NCBI RefSeq assembly: GCF_002024165.1
Contig: NZ_MWQN01000001.1
Coordinates: forward strand, 4,691,501-4,755,500
From: Embleya scabrispora
Lineage (GTDB): Bacteria; Actinomycetota; Actinomycetes; Streptomycetales; Streptomycetaceae
Direction of reading: 5' to 3'
Length of the DNA stretch: 64,000 nucleotides
Shown here: positions 1 through 10,744 of the stretch, one piece after another
Numbering within the stretch: the stretch's first letter is position 1
Layout of the letters: every line of letters starts with the position of its first letter
Position numbers and translations under genes: made by a program
The notes under the pieces: model-generated
What the model saw: only the letters and a program-made list of their open reading frames with translations
Database searches by the model: none
What the model was told of the DNA's origin: nothing

Positions 1-1555
1 GGAGCAGGGCGGTGAGCATCGAGCGCAGGTTGAACTTGCCGCCGGAGACCGCCGTCGCCGGGTCGAGTACGAAGCTGACCGCGTCCGCGAGCAGTCGCTC
101 GATCGGCGTCGAGGGTTTGCCGTCCTCCTCCGTGCCCACCGGCCCGGCGGTGAGCGAGGCGCGGATCTCGTCGATGCGCGTGACGAACTGCTTCACGTCG
201 TCGTCGATCATCCGCTCCATGTCCTCGACACGGCGCGCGACGAGCGGCTTGAGCTCGTTCTCCTGCCACTGCGCGAACTCGACCTGGACCCGCCCGGAGA
301 GATGGTCGGTGATCTCCTTGACCGCCGCCTCCATCTTCTCCCGGGCGTTGAACGGGTTGGCGCCGATGGTGTTGCTCGGGTCGTATTCCTGCGCCCAGGT
401 CGGGATGTTCGCGGCGACCCGGTCCATGAACCGCCGGGTCGCGCCCTCGACCTCGCCGCGGGTCTCGCGCAGGTGCTCCTCCATCTGCGCGACGATCACC
501 CGTCGGTTCTGCTCCAGGCGGGTCAGCGGACCCTGGACCCGCTCGTAGGTGGCGCGCAACTCCTCCACGTCCTGGGTGAGCAGCGCCTCCTTGCGGTCGA
601 TCTGCTCGCGCGCCTCGATCAGCAGGTACTTGAGCTCCCGGGCGGGGGACAGGATCTTGGCCCGGCCGCGCTCGCGGGTCAGGAACTCCTCCAGGCCGCG
701 TTCGAGTTCGGGCATCCCGGACCCGGCCAGCAGGTCCGGGTCGCCCTTTTGCCGACCGGTCAACGCGGCCCGGGCGTTGACGAAGAAGACCCGGTCCGGG
801 CGGGAGAGGTACGGCGACAGGCGCTTGCGGATCTCCCGCTGCACGTCCTCGCGTTCCTCCTCCTCGACGAGGTTGATCTTGTTGCCGACGTAGAAGACGT
901 CCTCGTGGCCGCGCGCCTTGACGTGCACGTCCAGGAACAGCTGTTCGCTGCGCGACATCGCGGCCTGACAGTCCACCACGAACACGAGCACGTCGGCCTG
1001 TTCGAGATAGTTGAGGGTGACCTTCTCCCGCTCCGGCGCCTCGTTCAGGCCGGGGGAGTCGACCACCACCACGCCGTTGCGGCACAGTTCGAGCGGCCAG
1101 CGCACGACCGCCCGCTCGTACGGGTTCGGGGTGTTGTCGTCGTCCGCGCCGATGGTGACGTAGTCGGCGATCTCGTCCACGCCGACGGTCAGCGGCTCAC
1201 CGGCACTGCCGTCCGCCTCCAGCGGATAGATCAGCGCCGAGCGGGTGTCGCCCCACGTCACCTCGTTGATGATCGCGGTGCACGGTCGGGCGAAGGAGGG
1301 CAGCACCTTCTCGCCGAGCATCGAGTTGATCACGGTGCTCTTGCCGCGCTTGAACTCGCCGACGATCATCACCTTGAACGCCTCGGACGCGGCGCGCTGC
1401 TTCAGCGAGTCCAGCTTCTTGACGCCCGCGCCGATGCGCAGCCCGGCCACGATCGGCGTGAGCCGATCGATCAGGCCGACCAGGGTCTCCTGCCGTGCCC
1501 GCCACGCGCCGTAGCCCGCGTAGGCCCCATCGGCCGCCCCGTGACCCGTGTCCAC
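1..1555 (-). CDS. Dynamin-family GTPase (partial, C-terminus outside window)
   Basis: Large GTPase of the bacterial dynamin-like superfamily, expected to bind and remodel membrane; 518 residues are visible and the gene runs off the left edge. The G1 loop GEFKRGKST is at about residues 66-74, the G3 motif DSPG at 166-169 and the G4 motif NKIN at 225-228. A long helical, charged region follows, as in dynamin stalks. The GTG start at 1555 is chosen because a GAGGAGGGG ribosome site lies just upstream. It is the last visible gene of a minus-strand operon containing two other dynamin-like genes and a C39 peptidase, separated from the preceding gene by a 14-bp hairpin. Family assignment is firm; the cellular role is unknown. 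Confidence 0.85.
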   Translation of the reverse strand, partial: MDTGHGAADGAYAGYGAWRARQETLVGLIDRLTPIVAGLRIGAGVKKLDSLKQRAASEAFKVMIVGEFKRGKSTVINSMLGEKVLPSFARPCTAIINEVTWGDTRSALIYPLEADGSAGEPLTVGVDEIADYVTIGADDDNTPNPYERAVVRWPLELCRNGVVVVDSPGLNEAPEREKVTLNYLEQADVLVFVVDCQAAMSRSEQLFLDVHVKARGHEDVFYVGNKINLVEEEEREDVQREIRKRLSPYLSRPDRVFFVNARAALTGRQKGDPDLLAGSGMPELERGLEEFLTRERGRAKILSPARELKYLLIEAREQIDRKEALLTQDVEELRATYERVQGPLTRLEQNRRVIVAQMEEHLRETRGEVEGATRRFMDRVAANIPTWAQEYDPSNTIGANPFNAREKMEAAVKEITDHLSGRVQVEFAQWQENELKPLVARRVEDMERMIDDDVKQFVTRIDEIRASLTAGPVGTEEDGKPSTPIERLLADAVSFVLDPATAVSGGKFNLRSMLTALL

Positions 1556-1582
1556 CTGACCGCTCCCCTCCTCGACGGCTGC

Positions 1583-1616
1583 CCGATGCCGGGACCTGCT
1601 CCGGTCCCGGCATCGG
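1583..1616 (-). terminator. 14-bp perfect hairpin between two dynamin genes
   Basis: Arms 1583-1596 and 1603-1616 pair perfectly around a 6-nt loop. There is no T-tract. It sits in the 70-nt gap between the middle and last visible dynamin genes, so it may be a partial terminator or mRNA processing and stability element that lowers expression of the distal gene. Confidence 0.55.
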
Positions 1617-1625
1617 CGTCCGGCA

Positions 1626-4391
1626 CTAGCCTCTGGCGCCCAGCATGGTGTTGAGCTGGACCGCCAGCTGCTCGCTGCGCGAGACCAGATCCTGCCATGC
1701 GGGCCCATCGGCGCCGACCTTGGCCAGCGCGGTCTGCCGATCGGTGCGCCAGGCCCGCTGGCCGCGCACCGCCTCGTCCATCACTCCGGCGTACAGCGTG
1801 TGCAGCCGCTTGGAGACCTCCTCGGAGAAGCCGCCGAGGACCTCCTCGACCACCGGCTCCAGGGCCTTCATCGCCTGCGCGCGCTGTGCCTCGGTCAGCG
1901 AGGTCGACTTGACCTCGCCGAGCACCATGCCTCCGGCCGACGCCGCCATGCTCGCGCCCATCGGCAGCGCGGAGACGCCGCCGGTGAGCGGGATCAGCAG
2001 CGCGCCGAGCACGGCGACACCGGTCGGGCCGATCCGCCAGGCCAGCTTGCGGCTCTTGAGGTCCTTCAGGCCCAACGACTCCGCCTCGCCGAGCTCGAAC
2101 TCGGTGGACAACTGCTCGACCTTCTCGAGGCGGTAGCCGCTTCCGCGCCCGAAGTGCAGCTTCATCTTCGCGTCCAGCCACTGCACGTCGGCCTGCACGC
2201 TGGAGTGCAGCTGGGCTTCGAACTTCTTGGCCAGCGCGGTCAGTTCGCGGCGCAACCGGAACGGCAGATCGCGTTCCCACCAGGTCCGGGCGTCGGGCGC
2301 GCGTTCGAGTTCGTAGCGCAGCGTGTCCAACAGGTCCCCGCGCGAGAGTTGCAGGTGCTCGCGGAACTTCTCCGACGTCTGCGTGCGGCGCTGCTGGAGT
2401 TCGACCCGGACCCGGCCCCATTCGCCGGCCATCCGGTCGATCTCCACCTCGGACTCCTCGACGGCGCGCCGCCGTTCCGTCTCGCCGAGCGCCGCGGCGG
2501 CCAGTCCGTCCCGGCCCAGGCCCGCCATCTCGTCGAGCAGCGCGAGCAGTTGGCCCGCCGTCTGGCGCGAGCGCATGCTGCGCCGTCCGCCGGAGGTGGT
2601 GTATTCGGTGATCCGCGCGTACACGCCGGCCGCGGGCGAGGCGTCCTCGCGATGCGGGCCGGCCAAAACCTGCAGCGTCGGCGAGATGCGGCGCACCCGG
2701 CCGCCGAGGTAGTCGACGATGTCCTCGCGCTCGTCCTCGTCGACGGTGTCCAGCTTGGACACCACCACGGTGATCCGCGGCACGTGCCGGGCGATCACCT
2801 CCTCCTCCAGGAACGCGGTCTCGGACAGGCCGAGCGGCGCGCTCGCGGAGACCACCATCAGCACCGCGTCGCTGGCCGCGACCGTACGGCGGACCAGGTC
2901 CTCGGTGCGGCGGTCCAGGTCCTCCGCGTCCTCGCCCTTGCCCCGGCCCGCGTTGACGCCGGGGGTGTCCACCAACTCGACGTCCAGGCGGGCCAGTTCG
3001 GGCTCGGCCACCAGGACCCGCACGCCGACCAGGCGGGAGGCGGCCTCGGAGTCGCGGTCCGCGCCGAGCCGGGACACCTCGTCCCAGGTCGCGGCCACCG
3101 CCGGACGCGGCTCGGCGTGCCCGTCGGCGAACTGCAACTCCAGGCGCGGCTCGGGTCCGGCCACGACCACCAGCGGCACCGGGGTGTGCCGGCCCTCGGG
3201 CAGCACGGGGGCGCCGAGCAGCCGGTTGATCAGCGACGTCTTGCCGCGGCCGAACTCGCCGACCACCGCGATCCGCAGCCCCGGTCGGCGCATCCGCGCG
3301 CGCAACCGGTCCAGCTCGGCGGCGATCGCGTCCAGACCGAAGTCGGTGGCGATGGTGTGCGCGTCGTTGATCCGCCGGCCGAGCGTGGTCGCCGACGGCG
3401 CCTGCCGGACCAGGCTCGTCACCGAGCCGGGAGGCGTGGCGGAAGGGGCGGGGGCGAGCGGCGGAGCCGACACCGGCGCGGCGGGGGCTTCGGCGCCCGG
3501 CCGCGGCGCCGGCGGCCGAGGCGCGGTCGGCGCCACCACCGCCGGCGTGCTCTGCCCGGCCGGCCCGGCGTGCGCCGAACCGGCGCCGGGCCCGGCCGCA
3601 CCCGGCGCACCCGCACCCGGCGCACCCGCACCCGGCGCACCCGCACCCGGCCCACCGCCGACGCGCCCCGCCCACCCCTGGTTCGGCCCCGGCGTACCCA
3701 AAGAGTCGTCGCCCGCCGGGCGCGGACCCGGAGCCGGGGCCTGCCTCCGGTCCGCCGTCTGCCCCGACGGGCCGGGTCGGCCGGTGGGCGAGTCGCCCGA
3801 GTCGCGCCGCGCGCCCGCCTCACGCGGTGCACCCGCACGCAGCCACGAGGCGGTCGACGGCACCAGCCGGTGGTACGCGGCCACCGCCCCCACGGGCATC
3901 ACCCGCGCGTAGAGCCCGGCGAGGATCTTCGGTCCGCCGCGCGCGTCCGCCTCCGGATCGGCCAGGAATCGACCGAGCGACTGGAAGAAGCGGGCCCGTT
4001 CCGCCAGTGCGTCCGGCTGCATCGACAACGTCCAGGCGGACACGTCCGAGATGGTGCCCTCGACCGATGCCGCGACCTCGGGCAGCTCGCTCAGCTTGAC
4101 GTGCCGCAGCACGTTCTCGCTCGGCCAGGCCCACTGGACCGCGCCCCAGACCGGATGGATCGGCAACTCCCGCCGTGCCGGGGTGGCCTTGCCGACCCCG
4201 ATCAGGCTCCACAACGTCCAGCCGTCGGCGGTCCGCTCCGGTACCGGCGGCAGCGCCACCGACTCCATGGTGATCCAGCCGCGCAGCTCGTCGCTGCGAT
4301 GGATCCCGCTCAGCAGACCCGCGACGCCCGGACGGCGGCGTGGTTGTACCTGCGCGGCCTGGCGCAGCACGTGTTCACGATCGAACGACAT
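1626..4391 (-). CDS. Dynamin-family GTPase with long N-terminal extension
   Basis: 921-residue dynamin-like GTPase. Residues 1-185 form an unrecognised, Trp-rich globular or helical domain. Residues 190-330 are a Pro/Gly/Ala linker with GAGAP repeats. The GTPase domain follows: G1 GEFGRGKTS at 378-386, G3 DTPG at 475-478 and G4 SKLD at 545-548, then long helices. A hydrophobic hairpin-like stretch (residues about 820-860, Gly/Ala/Leu-rich with GGVSALPMG) could be a membrane paddle. Start is ATG at 4391. It lies 43 nt downstream of the C39 peptidase gene in the same operon. The fold is clear; the N-terminal domain has no assignment I can support. It may pair with the neighbouring dynamins, as bacterial dynamins often act in tandem. 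Confidence 0.85.
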   Translation of the reverse strand: MSFDREHVLRQAAQVQPRRRPGVAGLLSGIHRSDELRGWITMESVALPPVPERTADGWTLWSLIGVGKATPARRELPIHPVWGAVQWAWPSENVLRHVKLSELPEVAASVEGTISDVSAWTLSMQPDALAERARFFQSLGRFLADPEADARGGPKILAGLYARVMPVGAVAAYHRLVPSTASWLRAGAPREAGARRDSGDSPTGRPGPSGQTADRRQAPAPGPRPAGDDSLGTPGPNQGWAGRVGGGPGAGAPGAGAPGAGAPGAAGPGAGSAHAGPAGQSTPAVVAPTAPRPPAPRPGAEAPAAPVSAPPLAPAPSATPPGSVTSLVRQAPSATTLGRRINDAHTIATDFGLDAIAAELDRLRARMRRPGLRIAVVGEFGRGKTSLINRLLGAPVLPEGRHTPVPLVVVAGPEPRLELQFADGHAEPRPAVAATWDEVSRLGADRDSEAASRLVGVRVLVAEPELARLDVELVDTPGVNAGRGKGEDAEDLDRRTEDLVRRTVAASDAVLMVVSASAPLGLSETAFLEEEVIARHVPRITVVVSKLDTVDEDEREDIVDYLGGRVRRISPTLQVLAGPHREDASPAAGVYARITEYTTSGGRRSMRSRQTAGQLLALLDEMAGLGRDGLAAAALGETERRRAVEESEVEIDRMAGEWGRVRVELQQRRTQTSEKFREHLQLSRGDLLDTLRYELERAPDARTWWERDLPFRLRRELTALAKKFEAQLHSSVQADVQWLDAKMKLHFGRGSGYRLEKVEQLSTEFELGEAESLGLKDLKSRKLAWRIGPTGVAVLGALLIPLTGGVSALPMGASMAASAGGMVLGEVKSTSLTEAQRAQAMKALEPVVEEVLGGFSEEVSKRLHTLYAGVMDEAVRGQRAWRTDRQTALAKVGADGPAWQDLVSRSEQLAVQLNTMLGARG
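3604..3648. repeat. Three perfect 15-bp tandem repeats
   Basis: The unit GGCGCACCCGCACCC occurs three times head-to-tail (3604-3618, 3619-3633, 3634-3648). It lies inside the Pro/Gly linker of the second dynamin gene and encodes GAGAP pentapeptides. Being in-frame, copy-number change would only alter linker length. Confidence 0.8.
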
Positions 4392-4434
4392 GTGTGGTCC
4401 CTACTCCCGTCGAATGTGTGCTGGTGTCGAACGA

Positions 4435-5544
4435 TCAGGCGTGCGTGGGGTGGGCCACGATCATCGTGGTGTCCCGGTCCTGCCACGCGTTGACGAAGTC
4501 GGCCAGCGGAATCGGCTCGACCTTGCCGAATGGCGCGCCCGGGTCGTTGAGCAGCACGTACGTCGACCCGTCGGGCCGGGTGTCGACGCCGGTCACCCAC
4601 ACCGCGTGCCCCATCGTGGGGTCCTGCTCCAGCGGCGCGCCGGTGGTCGCGTCGTGCAGCGGCGACCAGATCTCCTGCGCGTCGAGGGCGACGATCACCT
4701 GGTCGCCCTTCTGCAGGGCGTCGAGCATCTGCCGCATGTCGGCGCCCGGGACCATGTCCGTGTCCACGCCGTGCATTTCGAGCAGCTTGCCGATGTCGCC
4801 GGTCTTGGTGCCGTTGGCGGGGTCGTAGATGCCCGCCTGCTGGGCCTCGGTCACCAGCGCGTTCTCGTCCATCGGCATGCCGGTGAGCTTCTCCAGGATC
4901 ATGCCCTGGGAGACCACCGCGCAGCTGGTGTCGCCGGCCTGCTGGTGCCAGTACTTGGCGTCGCCGACCGGGTCGCCGGTGCCCTGGAACTGCTCCGGCG
5001 CCCAGTCCGGCGCGTGGTAGGTCCAGTTGCCCTGGTCGTCGTAGACCGCGCCCCACGAAGCGGGCGTCGCCTCGGTGTAGGTGCTCGGGTCGTACGAGGC
5101 CGGGTCGGCGTACGGGTCGGTGCCGTAGGGGTCGCCGTACGGATCGCCGTACGGGTCGCTGCCGTACGGGTCGCCGTAGGGATCCGCGTACGGGTCGTAC
5201 GGGTCCAGGTACGGGTTGTTCACCTGGTCGTCGTGCCACTGCTGACTGGGCGTGGGCTGGTTGCCGTCGGTCGGGTCGAACGCCTTCGGGTCCCAGGCGT
5301 CGACCTTGCCGTCGCCGTCGCTGTCCGCGTGGAACGGGTCGTAGTTGGGGTCGTGCAGCGGATCGAAGTTGGGATCCGTGTAGGGAAGGGTGGAGTTCGG
5401 GTAGGCGCCGTTGAATCCGCCGGCCGCGTCGGTCTCCCACAGTGGCGCCGCCCCGACGCTTCCCCCGTCGGCGGTGTCCACTGTGTCGATGGTGTCGTCG
5501 GAGACCACCGCGAACAGGTCGTCGTCGTGCGTGTAATCGCTCAT
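4435..5544 (-). CDS. Papain-like C39-family peptidase with Asp/Pro/Tyr repeats
   Basis: 369-residue protein with no signal peptide. The acidic N-terminal half carries an EF-hand or dockerin-like calcium-loop sequence DSDGDGKVD (residues 74-82) and a low-complexity DPYGDPYG repeat tract (residues 111-150). The C-terminal half matches the C39-like papain fold: candidate oxyanion Gln202 and nucleophile Cys208 in QQAGDTSCAV, His313 in MGHAVWV, and Asp/Asn at 333-334 in LLNDPG. It probably cleaves a peptide bond, but the substrate is unknown. Its ATG shares one base with the stop of the upstream dynamin gene (TGATG), so translation is probably coupled. Sitting between two dynamins suggests a shared pathway. 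Conceivably it is an inactive ligand-binding relative, but all active-site residues look present. Confidence 0.8.
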   Translation of the reverse strand: MSDYTHDDDLFAVVSDDTIDTVDTADGGSVGAAPLWETDAAGGFNGAYPNSTLPYTDPNFDPLHDPNYDPFHADSDGDGKVDAWDPKAFDPTDGNQPTPSQQWHDDQVNNPYLDPYDPYADPYGDPYGSDPYGDPYGDPYGTDPYADPASYDPSTYTEATPASWGAVYDDQGNWTYHAPDWAPEQFQGTGDPVGDAKYWHQQAGDTSCAVVSQGMILEKLTGMPMDENALVTEAQQAGIYDPANGTKTGDIGKLLEMHGVDTDMVPGADMRQMLDALQKGDQVIVALDAQEIWSPLHDATTGAPLEQDPTMGHAVWVTGVDTRPDGSTYVLLNDPGAPFGKVEPIPLADFVNAWQDRDTTMIVAHPTHA

Positions 5545-7583
5545 CAGCCGAAATCCCCCCGGTGCGTTAGGCGTTCGCGTTGGCTGTTCACCGTGGCGCG
5601 ACGCCGTTCCGTCTGCCTGTCCGCGTCCTGCAACAGGTTTCTGCGAGCCGCGAGAATATCCTCGCGGCGTTGATGTTCGGCCACCAGTTCGGCGACCGTC
5701 GCCTCGTAGGTGGCCCGGTAGCGGTCCACGTGTTCCGAGACGTCCTGCGAGTAGTGCGTGGTGGCCGTGCGCACGGCCTCGTCGATCTGTCCGGACAAAC
5801 CGTCCGCGACGGTTCGCAGTGTCTGATGCATTTCGGCGCGTGCGTGGTTCCGCAGGGCCGTCATGTCGGTGGATGACAACGAATCGGCCACTTTGGCGAT
5901 GAATCCGCCGAATCCGATCCGCCCGGGAGGAGTGCCCGGGGAGCCGTTGCGGGTGCCGCCGAACCACTGGTCCAGGGCGCCGCCGATCCGCGCGCCCGGG
6001 GTTTTGGGCGCGGTCGGGTCGAGCCGGACGGCTCGGATCTGCTGGGTCACCCCCGTGACGGAACTCTCGTACGCCCGCATCGCCGCGTCCGCGAGTTGAT
6101 GCCCGGTCAACACGGTGACCGCGTCCGATCCGGCCGGTCGGGCCACCGCGCCGAGGCGGGCGTAGGCGGCGGCGAACGCGGTGTCCACGGCCGAGCGCGC
6201 GGTCTCGGCCGCCGTCGACAACGCGCCGGTGACCGCCTGTTGCACGATGTCGCCGATCCGGGGCAGGCCGCGCCGGATCAGTTCGGGGGCCTGTTCGGCG
6301 AGCACCGCGCGCAGTTCGTCGGGGGTGTTCGCGCGGTTCAGGGCCCGATCGATCTCGTCGCGGGTGTAGCCCCACCACTGCGGGGCCATGCCGCCGACCG
6401 CCTGCTGGGCACGCTGGGCGCCGGCGCCGAGCAGGCGAGCGGTCTCGCCGTGCTGGGCCCGGACGAAGGCGGCCATGTCGGCGATCCTCGCCTCGGCCAA
6501 CTCCGCCTCCTCGGCGTCGAGCCGCTGCTCGGCCAGGGTCACCTCGCGGCGCAACTCGTCGAGCAGGTCCTCGAGCAGTCGCAGCAGGTGGTCGGAGACC
6601 GCGACGATGCGCTGGCGCCGCATCAGGTCGCGCAGCCGGGCCACGGTGCGCGGAAACTCCTGGGCCCAGTGCTCCTGTTCGGGGCCGCGCAGGGGCCGTC
6701 CGGTGGCCAGCCGCACGACCGGCTCGGCGGCGACCGGTTCCAGGACCGGGTCGGGCACACCGAGCATCCGGGCGAACCGCTGTCGGACGTGGGCGAGCAG
6801 ATCGTCCCGTTCGTCCTCGTCGATGTGGTCCATCTTGGTGACGAGGATGATGCAGCGGCGCAATTGCCCCGGATCGAGCGCATCGGTGAGGAATTCGGTC
6901 AGCGACACCGGCGACGGCGACGTGGACGCGGTCAGTACGGCCGCCACGTCGGCGACGTCGCGCATCACCGCGCGCGTGATCTCCGTGTGACCTGCCCGGG
7001 CGTTGGTTCCGGGCGTGTCGATGATCACCAGGCCGTCGCGCAGGGCCGGCGCGGGGTGGCGGACCTCCAGGCTCTGCACCTGCGGGGCGATCGCCCCGTC
7101 GGCGGTGAGCAGGCGCAGGATGCCGGCGGTGTCCTCGGGGATCGGGGTGTCCGGCGCGAGGTGCGCGAGCATCCGGCCGAGCGGGCTGTCCGCCCCGGTG
7201 TACCGCCCGGAGGGGTACACATAGCGGATCCCGTGGCCGGTGAAGCGCACCTCGACGGAGAGCTCCTCCCCGTGGGTGATCCGAGTCGCGGCGCCGGTGG
7301 TCGGCAGTGCGGAGGTGGGCAGCAGATCGTCGGCCAGCAGCGCGTTGACGAAGGTGCTCTTGCCGGCCGAGAACTCGCCGATCACCGCCAGGTAGTAGCG
7401 GTCGTCCCGGAGCCGGGTCTCGATCTCGCGGATGCGCGCGGTCAGTTCCCCGAGCCGTTCCTGGTCGCCGACGATGCGGCGGACCATCGCCAACGCGAAG
7501 TCGAGGTGGTCGGAGGTCTCGGTGAGTGCCTCCACCACCTCGCGTCGCCTCGCCCGATCCCCGGCGATGCCGTGTGAATCCAC
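5544..7583 (-). CDS. Dynamin-family GTPase, first gene of operon
   Basis: 679-residue dynamin-like protein. G1 GEFSAGKST lies at residues 69-77, G3 DTPG at 189-192 and G4 TKMD at 249-252, followed by long amphipathic helices rich in Glu, Arg and Ala. A potential membrane-associating region is near the Phe/Gly-rich segment RIGFGGFIAKVAD. Two adjacent GTG codons (7586 and 7583) are possible starts; 7583 gives better spacing to GAGGGGG. The stop overlaps the peptidase start by one base. GTPase sequence differs clearly from both other dynamins in the operon, so these are not recent duplicates. Function is not known; related bacterial proteins act in membrane fusion, cytokinesis or phage tolerance. 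Confidence 0.85.
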   Translation of the reverse strand: MDSHGIAGDRARRREVVEALTETSDHLDFALAMVRRIVGDQERLGELTARIREIETRLRDDRYYLAVIGEFSAGKSTFVNALLADDLLPTSALPTTGAATRITHGEELSVEVRFTGHGIRYVYPSGRYTGADSPLGRMLAHLAPDTPIPEDTAGILRLLTADGAIAPQVQSLEVRHPAPALRDGLVIIDTPGTNARAGHTEITRAVMRDVADVAAVLTASTSPSPVSLTEFLTDALDPGQLRRCIILVTKMDHIDEDERDDLLAHVRQRFARMLGVPDPVLEPVAAEPVVRLATGRPLRGPEQEHWAQEFPRTVARLRDLMRRQRIVAVSDHLLRLLEDLLDELRREVTLAEQRLDAEEAELAEARIADMAAFVRAQHGETARLLGAGAQRAQQAVGGMAPQWWGYTRDEIDRALNRANTPDELRAVLAEQAPELIRRGLPRIGDIVQQAVTGALSTAAETARSAVDTAFAAAYARLGAVARPAGSDAVTVLTGHQLADAAMRAYESSVTGVTQQIRAVRLDPTAPKTPGARIGGALDQWFGGTRNGSPGTPPGRIGFGGFIAKVADSLSSTDMTALRNHARAEMHQTLRTVADGLSGQIDEAVRTATTHYSQDVSEHVDRYRATYEATVAELVAEHQRREDILAARRNLLQDADRQTERRRATVNSQRERLTHRGDFG

Positions 7584-7881
7584 CACCGCGCCCCCTCTCG
7601 ACGGTGCCCTCCCCGATGTACGGGCGATCCTGTCACGCGGGCGGGAATCCCGTCTCGGTCTGTGGACAGTGCGTTCGGCGCGGTCGTCTGCACCCCTGTG
7701 CCCCTTGTGTGACGCCCGTCCGGATGATGCGATGAGGACGTCGAGGCGATCCCTCGCAGCTGATTCCCGTTGCCGTGGCCCCCGACCCGATCGGTCTGAA
7801 AGGCATGAAAACGGCGCATACTGGTTGCGTGGGTGCCGCGACTTGTCCGGCGAGTCGATTCCGATGCGATCAGGAGATGGC

Positions 7882-8775
7882 ATGTTCGAGGAGGCCCAGT
7901 ATCTGGCCCCGGTCACCCGTAGGGCCGACGGCGGAGTCGAGGTCGAGCTGTCCCGCAGCCACCCGGGGTTCGCGGACGAGGTGTACCGCGAACGCCGGAA
8001 CCGGATCGCGGGGCTGGCCCTGGACCACCGGCGCGGCGACCCGATCCCGGAGGTCGAGTACACCGACGAGGAGCACGAGGTCTGGCGCCTGGTCTCCCGG
8101 GAGTTGTCCGCCTCGCACGCGGAGTACGCGGTCGCGGACTACCTGGACGGCGCCGCGCGCCTGAAGCTGCCGACCGAGCGGATCCCCCAGTTGGAGGAGG
8201 TCAGCGAGGCGCTGCAGCCGCTCACGGGCTTTCGCTACCTGCCCGCGGCCGGCCTGGTCCCGCTGCGCGACTTCTACGGGTCGCTGGCCGACTCGTACTT
8301 CCACTCCACGCAGTACATCCGCCACCACAGCGTGCCGCTGTACACCCCCGAGCCGGACGTCGTGCACGAGGTGATCGGCCACGCCAACATGCTCGCCTCG
8401 GACCGCTTCGCGGCGCTGTACCGGGTCGCGGGCGAGGCGGCCCGCCGGGTGGAGAGCCGCGAGGCGCTGGAGTTCGTCTCCAAGGTCTTCTGGTTCACCC
8501 TCGAGTTCGGCGTCATGCACGAGGGCGGCGCGCTCAAGGCCTACGGCGCCGGGATCCTGTCCTCCTACGGCGAGATCCGCGAGTTCCGCACGGTCGACAT
8601 CCGCGACCTGGACCTGGTCGCGATGGGCACGATGCAGTACGACATCACGCACTACCAGGACATCCTGTACGCCGCCCACTCGATGACCCAGCTGGAAGAC
8701 GTCGTCGGCACCTTCTGGGCGGACTGCACCGACGACTCGATCGCCGCGTTGTCGGCCTCGGCGAAGACCCCGTAG
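7882..8775 (+). CDS. Phenylalanine 4-monooxygenase-like aromatic amino acid hydroxylase
   Basis: Pterin- and iron-dependent aromatic amino acid hydroxylase, 297 residues, the usual length of bacterial monomeric enzymes. It would convert phenylalanine to tyrosine with tetrahydropterin and oxygen. The iron-ligand motif HEVIGH is at residues about 172-177, and a downstream Glu in FWFTLEFGV completes the 2-His-1-carboxylate triad. No regulatory ACT domain is present. ATG at 7882 is preferred because CAGGAG lies 5 nt upstream; an in-frame ATG at 7864 is possible. It is divergent from the dynamin operon across a 298-nt gap with no clear regulatory motif, and followed by a 17-bp hairpin. Substrate could also be tryptophan, but the sequence best fits the bacterial phenylalanine group. 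Confidence 0.85.
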   Translation: MFEEAQYLAPVTRRADGGVEVELSRSHPGFADEVYRERRNRIAGLALDHRRGDPIPEVEYTDEEHEVWRLVSRELSASHAEYAVADYLDGAARLKLPTERIPQLEEVSEALQPLTGFRYLPAAGLVPLRDFYGSLADSYFHSTQYIRHHSVPLYTPEPDVVHEVIGHANMLASDRFAALYRVAGEAARRVESREALEFVSKVFWFTLEFGVMHEGGALKAYGAGILSSYGEIREFRTVDIRDLDLVAMGTMQYDITHYQDILYAAHSMTQLEDVVGTFWADCTDDSIAALSASAKTP

Positions 8776-8799
8776 CGCCGCCCCGCATAGTCGTTCACC

Positions 8800-8841
8800 C
8801 GTGCGGGTGACCGGAACCCAAACTTTCCGGTCGCCCGCACG
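8800..8841 (+). terminator. 17-bp hairpin after the aromatic hydroxylase
   Basis: Arms 8800-8816 and 8825-8841 pair over 17 bp with a single T-G wobble and an 8-nt loop. The hairpin starts 24 nt after the hydroxylase stop codon and 41 nt before the next start, which fits a factor-independent terminator without a T-tract, the common actinomycete type. Confidence 0.75.
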
Positions 8842-8882
8842 ACGCGTCCCTATGCTCGCGTCGACTACGGAAGGGGTTCAGA

Positions 8883-9461
8883 ATGTCTGCCATGGCACAC
8901 GAGATCCCCGCGCAGGAAGACGTCATGCTCGACGGCTTCCTGGCGTTGGACACCCCCTTGGGCTTCCGCGCCGAGTTCATCGAGGGGGACATCGTCGTGA
9001 CACCACCGCCGATGGGAAATCACGAGCGCATCATCAGCGCGGTGGTTCGCCAGATTCTGAGCGGCTCGGCCGTGCCGATGGATTTCTCCGGTGGCAAGGG
9101 ATTGGTGGTGGCCGCCGGCGGGGGACCCGCCCCCAACCATGTCATTCCGGACGGCACGTTCGCTCCCGAGGAACTGGACCTGTTCCTGGACGCCGAATCG
9201 TGGATGCCGTGCGCCGGGGTTGCCCTGGTCCTGGAGGTGACGTCGTATCGAGCCGGCTTCGATCGGGAACAGAAGCGACGGGCCTATGCCCGCAGCGGCA
9301 TTCCGCTGTACCTGCTCGTGGATCGAGAGCAGAGCAAGGTCACGCTCTTCCTGGCGCCGAAGGGCGACGACTACCTGGAGAGCCACGCCGGTCCCTTCGG
9401 CAAGCAGATCGATCTTCCCGCGCCGTTCTCGATGACGCTGAGCACCGGCAAGTTCGTGTGA
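8883..9461 (+). CDS. Uma2-family (DUF820) restriction-endonuclease-like protein
   Basis: 192-residue PD-(D/E)XK-fold protein of the Uma2 group, very abundant in actinomycetes and of largely unknown role. The PD motif appears in VIPDGTFAP, the second catalytic segment in LVLEVTS, followed by the typical REQKRRAYARSGIPLYLLVD block that packs the active site. The ATG at 8883 follows a GGAAGGGG ribosome site. The gene stands alone, after a strong hairpin and convergent with a WD40-type gene. Nuclease activity is inferred from the fold only. Confidence 0.8.
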   Translation: MSAMAHEIPAQEDVMLDGFLALDTPLGFRAEFIEGDIVVTPPPMGNHERIISAVVRQILSGSAVPMDFSGGKGLVVAAGGGPAPNHVIPDGTFAPEELDLFLDAESWMPCAGVALVLEVTSYRAGFDREQKRRAYARSGIPLYLLVDREQSKVTLFLAPKGDDYLESHAGPFGKQIDLPAPFSMTLSTGKFV

Positions 9462-9538
9462 CGAACCAGGGGTCCGCGCGTCACCTTTCGAGGGGGCGCC
9501 GTGCCCGAAGTCGACGAGTTCTTCGGTCGGCGCGTGCC

Positions 9539-10744
9539 TCACACCCGCCGGACGAAGACCCGGCCGAAGTCGCCGCCGGTGGCCAGGAGGGTGCCGTCGG
9601 CGGAAAAGGCCAGGCGGCGGATGCGTTGTTCGTCGTAGCCGGGCAGGGCGACGGCGCCGCGCTCGCGCAGCTCCGCGTCGTACACGCGCAGGGCGCTCGT
9701 ACGATGACCGCCCACCGCGATCCGCCGGCCGTCCGGCGAGTAGGCCCACGCGTAGCAGGTCGCCCAGCCCTTCGGGTGGTGCGGATCACCCAGGTGCCAG
9801 GCCGGCTCGCCGGTGTCGATCGAGATCGCGAACGGCCCGTGCACGCGGCCCCGATTGACCAGGAGCAGCGTCTCGCTCGGATCGAAGCCGAGGTCGCCGA
9901 TCTCCCACTCCAGCGGCACCCGCGCGACCGGCCGGCCGGCCTCCACGTCCCACACCTCGACCTCGTTGGTCGGATCCTCGCTCGCGTCCCGGTGCCCGTA
10001 CACCAGCCCGCGACCGACCCGCCACACCGCGAGCAGCCGACCCGAGGGGGACAGCGCGGCGCCCCGGCACTCGGTGGCCGGCGAGCGGGTGGACACCTCG
10101 CAGACCGGCGCGCCGGCCGCGTCCAGGACGCGCACCCGGTCGTCGGCGTCGAACACCACCAGGCGCCGCCGGGCCGCGTCCCAGGCCGGCTGCACGGTGT
10201 GCGGATTGAACAGGGCGTTCTCGAACTGCCGGTAATCGGCCAGCGGTTCCTCGTGCAGCGTGCCCAGGTCGAGCCGCCGGGTCGAGCCGCCGACGGTGTA
10301 GACCACGGCCGAACCGGTCGCGTCGAACAGCGCGGTGGCGATGCCGGTCGGCCGCTCGGCCGCGGGCACCGCGTGCACCGTGCGGCGCACCCCGGTCGCC
10401 ACGTCCACGAGCCGGATCGCGCCGTCGTAGGCGATCAGCACGGTGCGGCCGTCCGGATGCAGGTCCATGGCCCGGGACGAGGTCTTGCCCGGCGGCATGA
10501 ACTCCAGCACCACCGGGTCCTCGGCCCCGCCCAGGCGGACGAACCCGGCGCGCATCGCCTTGCCCACCTCCCGGCGCAGCGCGATCACGGCGGCGGCCGG
10601 GTCGGCGAAGTCCTTGCGCGTCTCCCGGGCCGCCCCGTCACCCGAGCGGGCGGAGCGGACGAACGCGGCGCCGGACACGCCGAACATCCGATACTTCGGC
10701 CCGGCCGAGTCCGGCAATACGAGGGTGATCTCTTCCTGCGCCAT
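9539..10744 (-). CDS. WD40-type beta-propeller protein with possible N-terminal WGR-like domain
   Basis: 401 residues from ATG 10744. The last ~300 residues show successive beta-propeller blades of WD40 type (for example AMDLHPDGRTVLIAYDG, RGAALSPSGRLLAVW, YAWAYSPDGRRIAVGG and RLAFSADGTLLATGG). Residues 1-75 resemble a degenerate WGR domain, with the ending FADPAAAVIAL...AGFVRL. No enzyme motif or signal peptide is visible. Propellers usually scaffold protein interactions; the partner is unknown. The start is uncertain: an in-frame ATG at 10795, 11 nt after the previous stop, would add 17 residues, and neither has a strong ribosome site. The short distance to the DUF3097 gene suggests co-transcription. 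Confidence 0.7.
   Translation of the reverse strand: MAQEEITLVLPDSAGPKYRMFGVSGAAFVRSARSGDGAARETRKDFADPAAAVIALRREVGKAMRAGFVRLGGAEDPVVLEFMPPGKTSSRAMDLHPDGRTVLIAYDGAIRLVDVATGVRRTVHAVPAAERPTGIATALFDATGSAVVYTVGGSTRRLDLGTLHEEPLADYRQFENALFNPHTVQPAWDAARRRLVVFDADDRVRVLDAAGAPVCEVSTRSPATECRGAALSPSGRLLAVWRVGRGLVYGHRDASEDPTNEVEVWDVEAGRPVARVPLEWEIGDLGFDPSETLLLVNRGRVHGPFAISIDTGEPAWHLGDPHHPKGWATCYAWAYSPDGRRIAVGGHRTSALRVYDAELRERGAVALPGYDEQRIRRLAFSADGTLLATGGDFGRVFVRRV

Follow-up and report, generated by a model that had tools for sequence, protein, structure and literature searches.

To our knowledge, how bacterial dynamin-like GTPases are switched on is largely open. In Cj-DLP1/2 of Campylobacter and other bacterial dynamin pairs the genes lie side by side in operons (PMC6104087), and Leo is a pair in which LeoC and LeoB correspond to one dynamin split in two (PMC4159319). 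SepX and DynB are jointly required for sporulation septation in Streptomyces venezuelae (PMC8748795). Here we analysed a stretch of 64,000 nucleotides (the window) from the 11-Mb genome of Embleya scabrispora (contig NZ_MWQN01000001.1, positions 4,691,501 to 4,755,500), in which an operon encodes three dynamin-like GTPases (DLP1, DLP2 and DLP3) together with a protein of papain/C39-like fold (the C39-like protein). The three dynamins are old, separately inherited paralogues that are held together in one order.

Gene coordinates and Pfam searches confirmed the layout proposed in a first-pass annotation of this DNA, namely three dynamin-like GTPases and a C39-like gene joined by an overlap and short gaps. 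The operon is contiguous and runs on the minus strand, as do all its features given below: DLP1 (5544..7586; 680 aa from a GTG at 7586, with the GTG at 7583 as an alternative) is followed by the C39-like gene (4435..5544; 369 aa), whose ATG overlaps the DLP1 stop by one base, then by DLP2 (1626..4391; 921 aa) and the 5' part of DLP3 (1..1555), a BDLP1-like GTPase whose gene ends 418 bases outside the window, past the window start. The successive gaps measure -1, 43 and 70 nt. Dynamin_N scored above its Pfam cut-off in DLP1, DLP2 and DLP3 (E = 4.8e-21, 7.2e-20 and 9.8e-27, respectively), with G domains at about 7391-6834, 3272-2760 and 1372-884. All three carry a P-loop (GEFSAGKS in DLP1) and a DxPG motif, and the G4 motifs read TKMD and SKLD, with NKIN located in DLP3 by alignment.

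The helical domain PF21808 was found in DLP3 (9.5e-22), with no listing for DLP1 or DLP2 up to an E-value of 0.1, and the Nostoc BDLP1 structure (2j68) matches DLP3 residues 108-687 (E = 3.1e-32). By simple hydropathy, a strong hydrophobic segment is present in DLP2 (1.94, in the C-terminal part) and DLP3 (2.11), and no strongly hydrophobic segment was found beyond residue 250 of DLP1, whose maximum in this genome is 0.81. Alignments further delimit an N-terminal extension of about 190 aa in DLP2 (3822..4391), followed by a Pro/Gly-rich linker; the extension is kept in Embleya and Yinghuangia and missing from two aligned DLP2 rows of the related cassette described below, and a resemblance to cyclases, looked for by eye only, was not seen in it.

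In a 60-row dynamin tree (the 69 rows of a first tree minus 15 long or near-duplicate ones plus six added), DLP1, DLP2 and DLP3 form three clades, each joining Embleya and Yinghuangia with other loci (support 100/96, 99/97 and 96/91), and branching within the clades was largely congruent among the three in the first tree. The two-dynamin operons of other Streptomycetaceae follow the same division, their first gene grouping with DLP2 and their second with DLP3 in the 60-row tree.

The unit is also stable in position. By DLP3 alignment the closest named relatives are Embleya hyalina, E. scabrispora and 'Streptomyces' sp. SID3343, then Yinghuangia seranimata and Y. soli, and the E. hyalina locus (L098; L and G numbers are our labels for loci and genomes) has dynamins with 95-100% identity to the three of the window. 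A survey of co-occurrence found the four genes adjacent in all seven Embleya and Yinghuangia genomes examined (in G003 split over two contigs that break inside DLP2), so that they do not scatter within these genera. They also lie at the same locus in all seven, with hemW and fadD beyond DLP3 and with lepA (for G030, seen in L102). Among 100 relatives, strong matches to the C39-like gene (E<1e-40) were confined to the four Embleya and three Yinghuangia genomes, with weaker ones in three other genomes (best 1.4e-8), and tblastn did not find the C39-like domain in the other dynamin loci searched.

The same three dynamins recur elsewhere with a different partner. A DLP3 profile search of 394 Streptomycetaceae genomes gave 19 matches at E<=1e-60, 14 of them full-length at <1e-200, which comprise the seven Embleya and Yinghuangia genomes and 7/387 other Streptomycetaceae; across the phylum, 27/396 genomes passed 1e-40, the full profile being matched in G000 and G033 only and about half to two thirds of it in the other 25. 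The genome matches and the named contigs from a DLP3 alignment search, with identical records counted once, define eleven further Streptomycetaceae loci, those with names belonging to Streptomyces and Streptantibioticus, that carry DLP1-DLP2-DLP3 homologues in order. Contig ends cut two of them, L103 before DLP1 and L109 inside DLP3, and one of the 12 loci from the alignment search (L108, from a Negativicutes metagenome-assembled genome, which matches part of the query at 25% identity) was left aside.

Past DLP3, tblastn detected a cyclase-like gene in all ten of the loci reaching that far; our gene calls, made with a simple codon-usage script, had missed it in L107 and L113, where tblastn recovered it, and also left the cyclase gene of L149, one of the wider relatives below, uncalled. 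The cassette gene overlaps the DLP3 gene by one base in L086, L103, L104, L110, L111 and L114, and encodes about 345-450 aa in the nine loci with ends called or translated. The seven cassette genomes, and no others of the 394, have full-length matches (E<1e-160), which lie directly after DLP3, and some member of the wider family (1e-15) occurs in 221/394. The cyclase identity rests on the sequence profile. With an E-value limit of 10 it returned five PDB matches, each of them a class III nucleotidyl cyclase (best 0.0015, others 0.36-0.74). Fold matches were taken as agreement only: in Foldseek, cyclases made up 49 of the 50 rows listed, none under E = 0.001, for a poor model (mean pLDDT 38.6). 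Single-sequence Pfam scans of nine of the proteins gave no cyclase family, and PADLOC gave no match for the three scanned. Asp13 and Asp57, which we take to be the two metal ligands, are invariant in nine aligned rows. The C-terminal part of the protein in L086, L103, L106, L107 and L114 holds His/Asp/Pro/Tyr-rich repeats of the DPYHPDPYH type, which resemble the DPY repeats found in the C39-like protein of Embleya, perhaps by coincidence.

A convergent gene of one family (hereafter CRP-type) accompanies the cassette in 10/10 loci; the two members scanned with Pfam have cNMP_binding and HTH_Crp_2 domains. In addition, tblastn found a PycTM-like protein in 7/10 (PADLOC PycTM 1.2e-6 in L087 and 0.015 in L086). 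No other flanking family is common to more than 2/10 loci, and the cassette edges are therefore marked. A plasmid search with the cassette DLP3 gave three records, none spanning 80% of the query, and a phage search with DLP1 gave no matches. Genome G069 has a DLP1-DLP3 pair that clusters with the Embleya forms, with a cyclase-like gene after it and a CRP-type gene about 4 kb beyond. In Embleya and Yinghuangia, tblastn gave no cyclase or PycTM match in L098, L099, L101 and L102, and profiles found no cyclase or CRP among the called genes.

Cyclase-like genes also adjoin other dynamins. In a comparison set of 20-kb stretches, six of the ten next-best cyclase relatives adjoin other dynamins, as does G042 (L090), of the same rank and fetched earlier; a dynamin was present in 0/10 of the lower-scoring relatives. 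By our own count, in which the cyclase of L149 was placed by its profile match, a CRP-type gene lies within about 1 kb in 14/20 of these relatives, so cyclase plus CRP looks, from gene content, like a portable switch. Seven loci (L135, L136, L137, L138, L142, L144 and L090) combine a cyclase-like gene with a different dynamin set, a CRP-type gene being adjacent in 5/7, and DO-GTPase-type proteins occur in L135 and L137, the two scanned by Pfam. In L091 (4960-12981) a CRP-type gene, a cyclase-like gene, two dynamins and an Hsp70/WD40 protein stand together, placing both kinds of partner by one dynamin pair. L153 (7012-10355) is a possible relative of Pycsar: it has no dynamins, and its cyclase-like gene lies close to those of a PycTM-like protein (25 bits) and a CRP-type protein of 561 aa.

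The C39-like protein of the window, taken alone, has no family match in Pfam, NCBIfam or PADLOC, and its assignment draws on fold matches, composition and repeats; two of its relatives match PF13529. Its sole PDB sequence match, nvWRAP-T (2.6e-4 over 24 residues), was taken for chance. The N-terminal half is acidic, nearly free of Lys and Arg and rich in DPY repeats; residues 1-179 have a pLDDT under 50 in the predicted structure and are probably disordered. This part includes a DxDxDG motif (DSDGDG, residues 74-79; 5308..5325), presumably of the calcium-binding type. The C-terminal domain has a papain/C39-like fold, with a pLDDT of 59-87 over residues 181-369 except for a stretch near 289-311 under 50. 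The predicted catalytic Cys208 (4921..4923) and His313 (4606..4608) are each present in 8/11 aligned rows, and together with the Asp are intact in all four Embleya proteins, that of the window included. The three missing rows are those of Yinghuangia, in which Cys and His are lost in 3/3 while the Asp, the domain and the gene position are retained. The first-pass call of a C39-type peptidase thus stands for the fold and for the predicted Embleya active site; that site is not kept in Yinghuangia, and cutting, which the annotation had raised as a possible mechanism, cannot be the shared one because both residues are gone there.

C39-like genes occur near dynamins in other lineages as well. A C39-like profile matched 11 of 394 genomes of the class at E<=1e-12, namely the Embleya genome itself, G562, G1062 and eight of one other genus. 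In G562 and G1062 the gene has a dynamin on either side, and the run includes an Hsp70 gene; the two genomes fetched from the other genus have secreted-type C39-like proteins and no dynamin neighbours. In the stretches around Mycobacterium-like C39-like proteins (L120, L121, L122, L157 and L158, with secreted-type starts by eye in L120, L121, L157 and L158) none of the called genes encodes a dynamin, so a C39-like gene does not always mean a dynamin. A plasmid search matched 27 records, three of which were fetched. On the pANA01 plasmid of Anabaena sp. 90, Hsp70, a C39-like gene and two dynamins form a single same-strand run. The plasmid of Rhodococcus sp. USK13 carries Hsp70, and a GTPase matching the dynamin profile at 93.9 bits lies 3.4 kb upstream; in the plasmid of R. 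qingshengii a dynamin lies about 3.6 kb downstream of the C39-like gene, an arrangement that is not one operon because opposite-strand genes intervene. Outside Embleya and Yinghuangia a C39-like gene therefore lies near a dynamin in five places, plasmids of Rhodococcus and Anabaena included, which makes a functional link between the two credible. In the 60-row tree the operon dynamins of G562 and G1062 fall among IniA/IniC-like clades (one on a long branch), outside those of DLP1-3, so the link arose or moved more than once.

Two further features were seen at these loci. Hsp70, DxDxDG repeats, a C39-like gene and a dynamin or dynamin-profile GTPase stand in one run in L159 (pANA01), L156 and L161, which span two phyla and are partly plasmids. 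Directly after the C39-like gene, small acidic proteins (L156:9933-10241, L160:6657-6989 and L161:6781-7176) show, by eye, a W..AL..ALDP-type motif.

We hold with moderate confidence that the three dynamins work together as a heterotypic machine on the membrane, and that the regulatory partner of this machine was exchanged between lineages; its likeliest role is the repair or controlled remodelling of damaged membrane. By analogy with Cj-DLP1/2 (PMC6104087), the three dynamins would form a hetero-oligomer at the inner face of the cell membrane. DLP2 and DLP3, whose hydrophobic segments are of the membrane-reaching kind, would insert into the membrane and remodel or tether it, and DLP1 may be a soluble G-domain partner that sets assembly. 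The C39-like protein would be the regulatory partner, its fold and its acidic N-terminal half with the repeats serving to bind either the dynamin complex or a substrate. The Embleya version may be a protease as well as an adaptor. In other Streptomycetaceae a stress or infection signal probably turns the dynamins on, since there the cassette couples the same three to a class III cyclase-like protein and a CRP-type regulator, in most loci together with a PycTM-like protein. The stress behind the membrane damage could be antibiotic, phage or envelope stress; as a biological trigger, membrane damage, phage or antibiotic is a guess, suggested by the character of the related cassettes. Within this explanation, the operon of Embleya and Yinghuangia most likely serves a fixed, locus-stable function.

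Several observations weigh against this explanation. The roles of bacterial dynamins vary (division, vesicle release, repair), and the window names none of them. Maximum DLP1 hydropathy is 0.81-1.11 in the seven Embleya and Yinghuangia rows against 1.70-2.19 in nine cassette rows, but in three of the nine the maximum falls outside the hairpin-like segment, so a 'lost paddle' of DLP1 applies to six rows only. The signalling story does not transfer directly to Embleya and Yinghuangia, because no cyclase or CRP gene adjoins their operon. G069, the genome that connects a cyclase with the Embleya-like clade, has a long branch in the first tree.

A more enzymatic version, which we regard as a tentative alternative, is that the Embleya C39-like protein is an active protease switch that cuts a dynamin or another protein upon membrane damage or calcium entry and so releases the dynamins. 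It would fit with the Cys, His and Asp of all four Embleya proteins, which are also present in the G562 and G1062 relatives; inspection by eye showed them in the Anabaena protein and both Rhodococcus ones too. It would fit as well with the DxDxDG motifs, which in Embleya, G1062 and Anabaena lie within the C39-like protein itself and in both Rhodococcus in the preceding gene; none was found in the Yinghuangia or G562 C39-like proteins.

That the operon is an anti-phage system resembling abortive infection is likewise a tentative alternative. The related cassette is sporadic, its edges are sharp, it often includes the PycTM-like member, and dynamins lie near C39-like genes on plasmids. The operon of Embleya and Yinghuangia, by contrast, occupies one common locus, so the defence role raised by the first-pass annotation gains from the mobile look of the cassettes and loses at the window operon itself. 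The best PADLOC LeoA/LeoBC scores of DLP1, DLP2 and DLP3 (65.2, 54.6 and 89.1 bits) overlap those of other dynamins, which reach 21.2-62.6 bits for IniA/IniC-like proteins, one two-dynamin operon and a DynB-like gene and 84.5 bits for G069; a DynA-like gene had no LeoA/LeoBC match. PADLOC gave one weak match among ten chosen genes flanking the cassettes, the flanks of the window operon being outside that scan.

A developmental unit for sporulation septa, akin to DynA/DynB, is unlikely. The presence of the operon in all the genomes examined of two genera would suit such a unit, as would the part of DynB in septation noted above. Embleya, however, retains a separate, divergent two-GTPase pair beside an SSB-like gene (L133:6468-7856 and 7933-9888; G000:C1 about 4502467-4505887), which matches such a pair in other Streptomycetaceae (44% over 392 aa and 38% over 508 aa) and which may be DynA/DynB; the first P-loop of the pair reads GAGRST, with Arg where Lys is usual. 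Streptomyces DynA/DynB-like rows also fall outside the DLP1-3 clades, on long branches, in the first tree. The operon as a replacement of DynA/DynB was set aside given the persistence of this pair. That the four genes are neighbours without a shared function is highly improbable in view of their conserved order in seven of seven genomes, the stop/start overlap, the largely congruent gene trees and the C39-like genes beside dynamins in other lineages.

Extending the idea of an exchanged partner beyond the three-dynamin machine, one could speculate that bacterial dynamins belong to a modular toolkit for conflict or membrane emergency, in which the engine is kept and the switch exchanged: cyclase, CRP-type regulator and PycTM-like protein in Streptomyces, which would make the cassette there a Pycsar-like one armed with dynamins, and, in other operons, a C39-like protein that carries DxDxDG repeats of the calcium type and is frequently accompanied by Hsp70. 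The operon of Embleya and Yinghuangia might then be a domesticated, switch-swapped version, with a pseudo-peptidase adaptor in one genus. From the operon and its relatives two concrete partners emerge that stand next to dynamins in more than one lineage: the C39-like protein, in many cases with DxDxDG repeats, and the class III cyclase-like protein, paired with a CRP regulator. The active site, intact in one genus and lost in its sister, makes it directly testable whether the peptidase is enzyme or adaptor, and the cassette does the same for the control of dynamins by cyclic nucleotides. The operon itself is flanked by hemW, its convergent neighbour, and divergently by an aromatic amino acid (phenylalanine-type) hydroxylase gene (window 7882-8775), the same place being taken by a 297-299-aa gene in the other three Embleya loci.

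The module had been put forward as a candidate undescribed one, and it proved to be a co-inherited unit; our searches of open-licence papers showed no description of an operon with three dynamins, of one joining dynamins to a C39-like gene or of a cassette of dynamins, cyclase and CRP, which is weak evidence of absence. Nostoc BDLP1, Cj-DLP1/2 and mycobacterial IniA/IniC have the Dynamin_N G domain in common with DLP1-3; Streptomyces DynA/DynB, a pair of dynamin-like proteins, belong to this bacterial family as well (PMC8748795). Unlike the bacterial pairs Cj-DLP1/2 and IniA/IniC, the Embleya operon has three intact dynamins, not one or two, and a C39-like partner, and its clades are separate from the IniA/IniC-like pairs in the 60-row tree, where those labels follow homology. 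LeoABC/Eleos likewise has tandem dynamins, and the PADLOC LeoA and LeoBC profiles match all three Embleya proteins; Eleos differs in composing one LeoA with a split or fused LeoBC, whereas the Embleya dynamins are three and uninterrupted. The cassette of other Streptomycetaceae shares with Pycsar a class III cyclase-like gene (10/10 loci) and, in 7/10, a PycTM-like protein, but adds three dynamins and a CRP regulator, and the window operon is adjoined by neither cyclase nor PycTM. Compared with the C39-like domains of HlyB (CLD, 3zua), the C39-like peptidase 3erv and the PCAT1 peptidase domain, the Embleya protein stands without an ABC transporter, shows no signal-peptide-like start by eye, has an acidic, repeat-rich N-terminal half and is encoded between dynamins. 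Set beside these systems, the operon is a real, conserved variant of bacterial dynamin operons in which cutting is not the general mechanism and a role in defence is possible.

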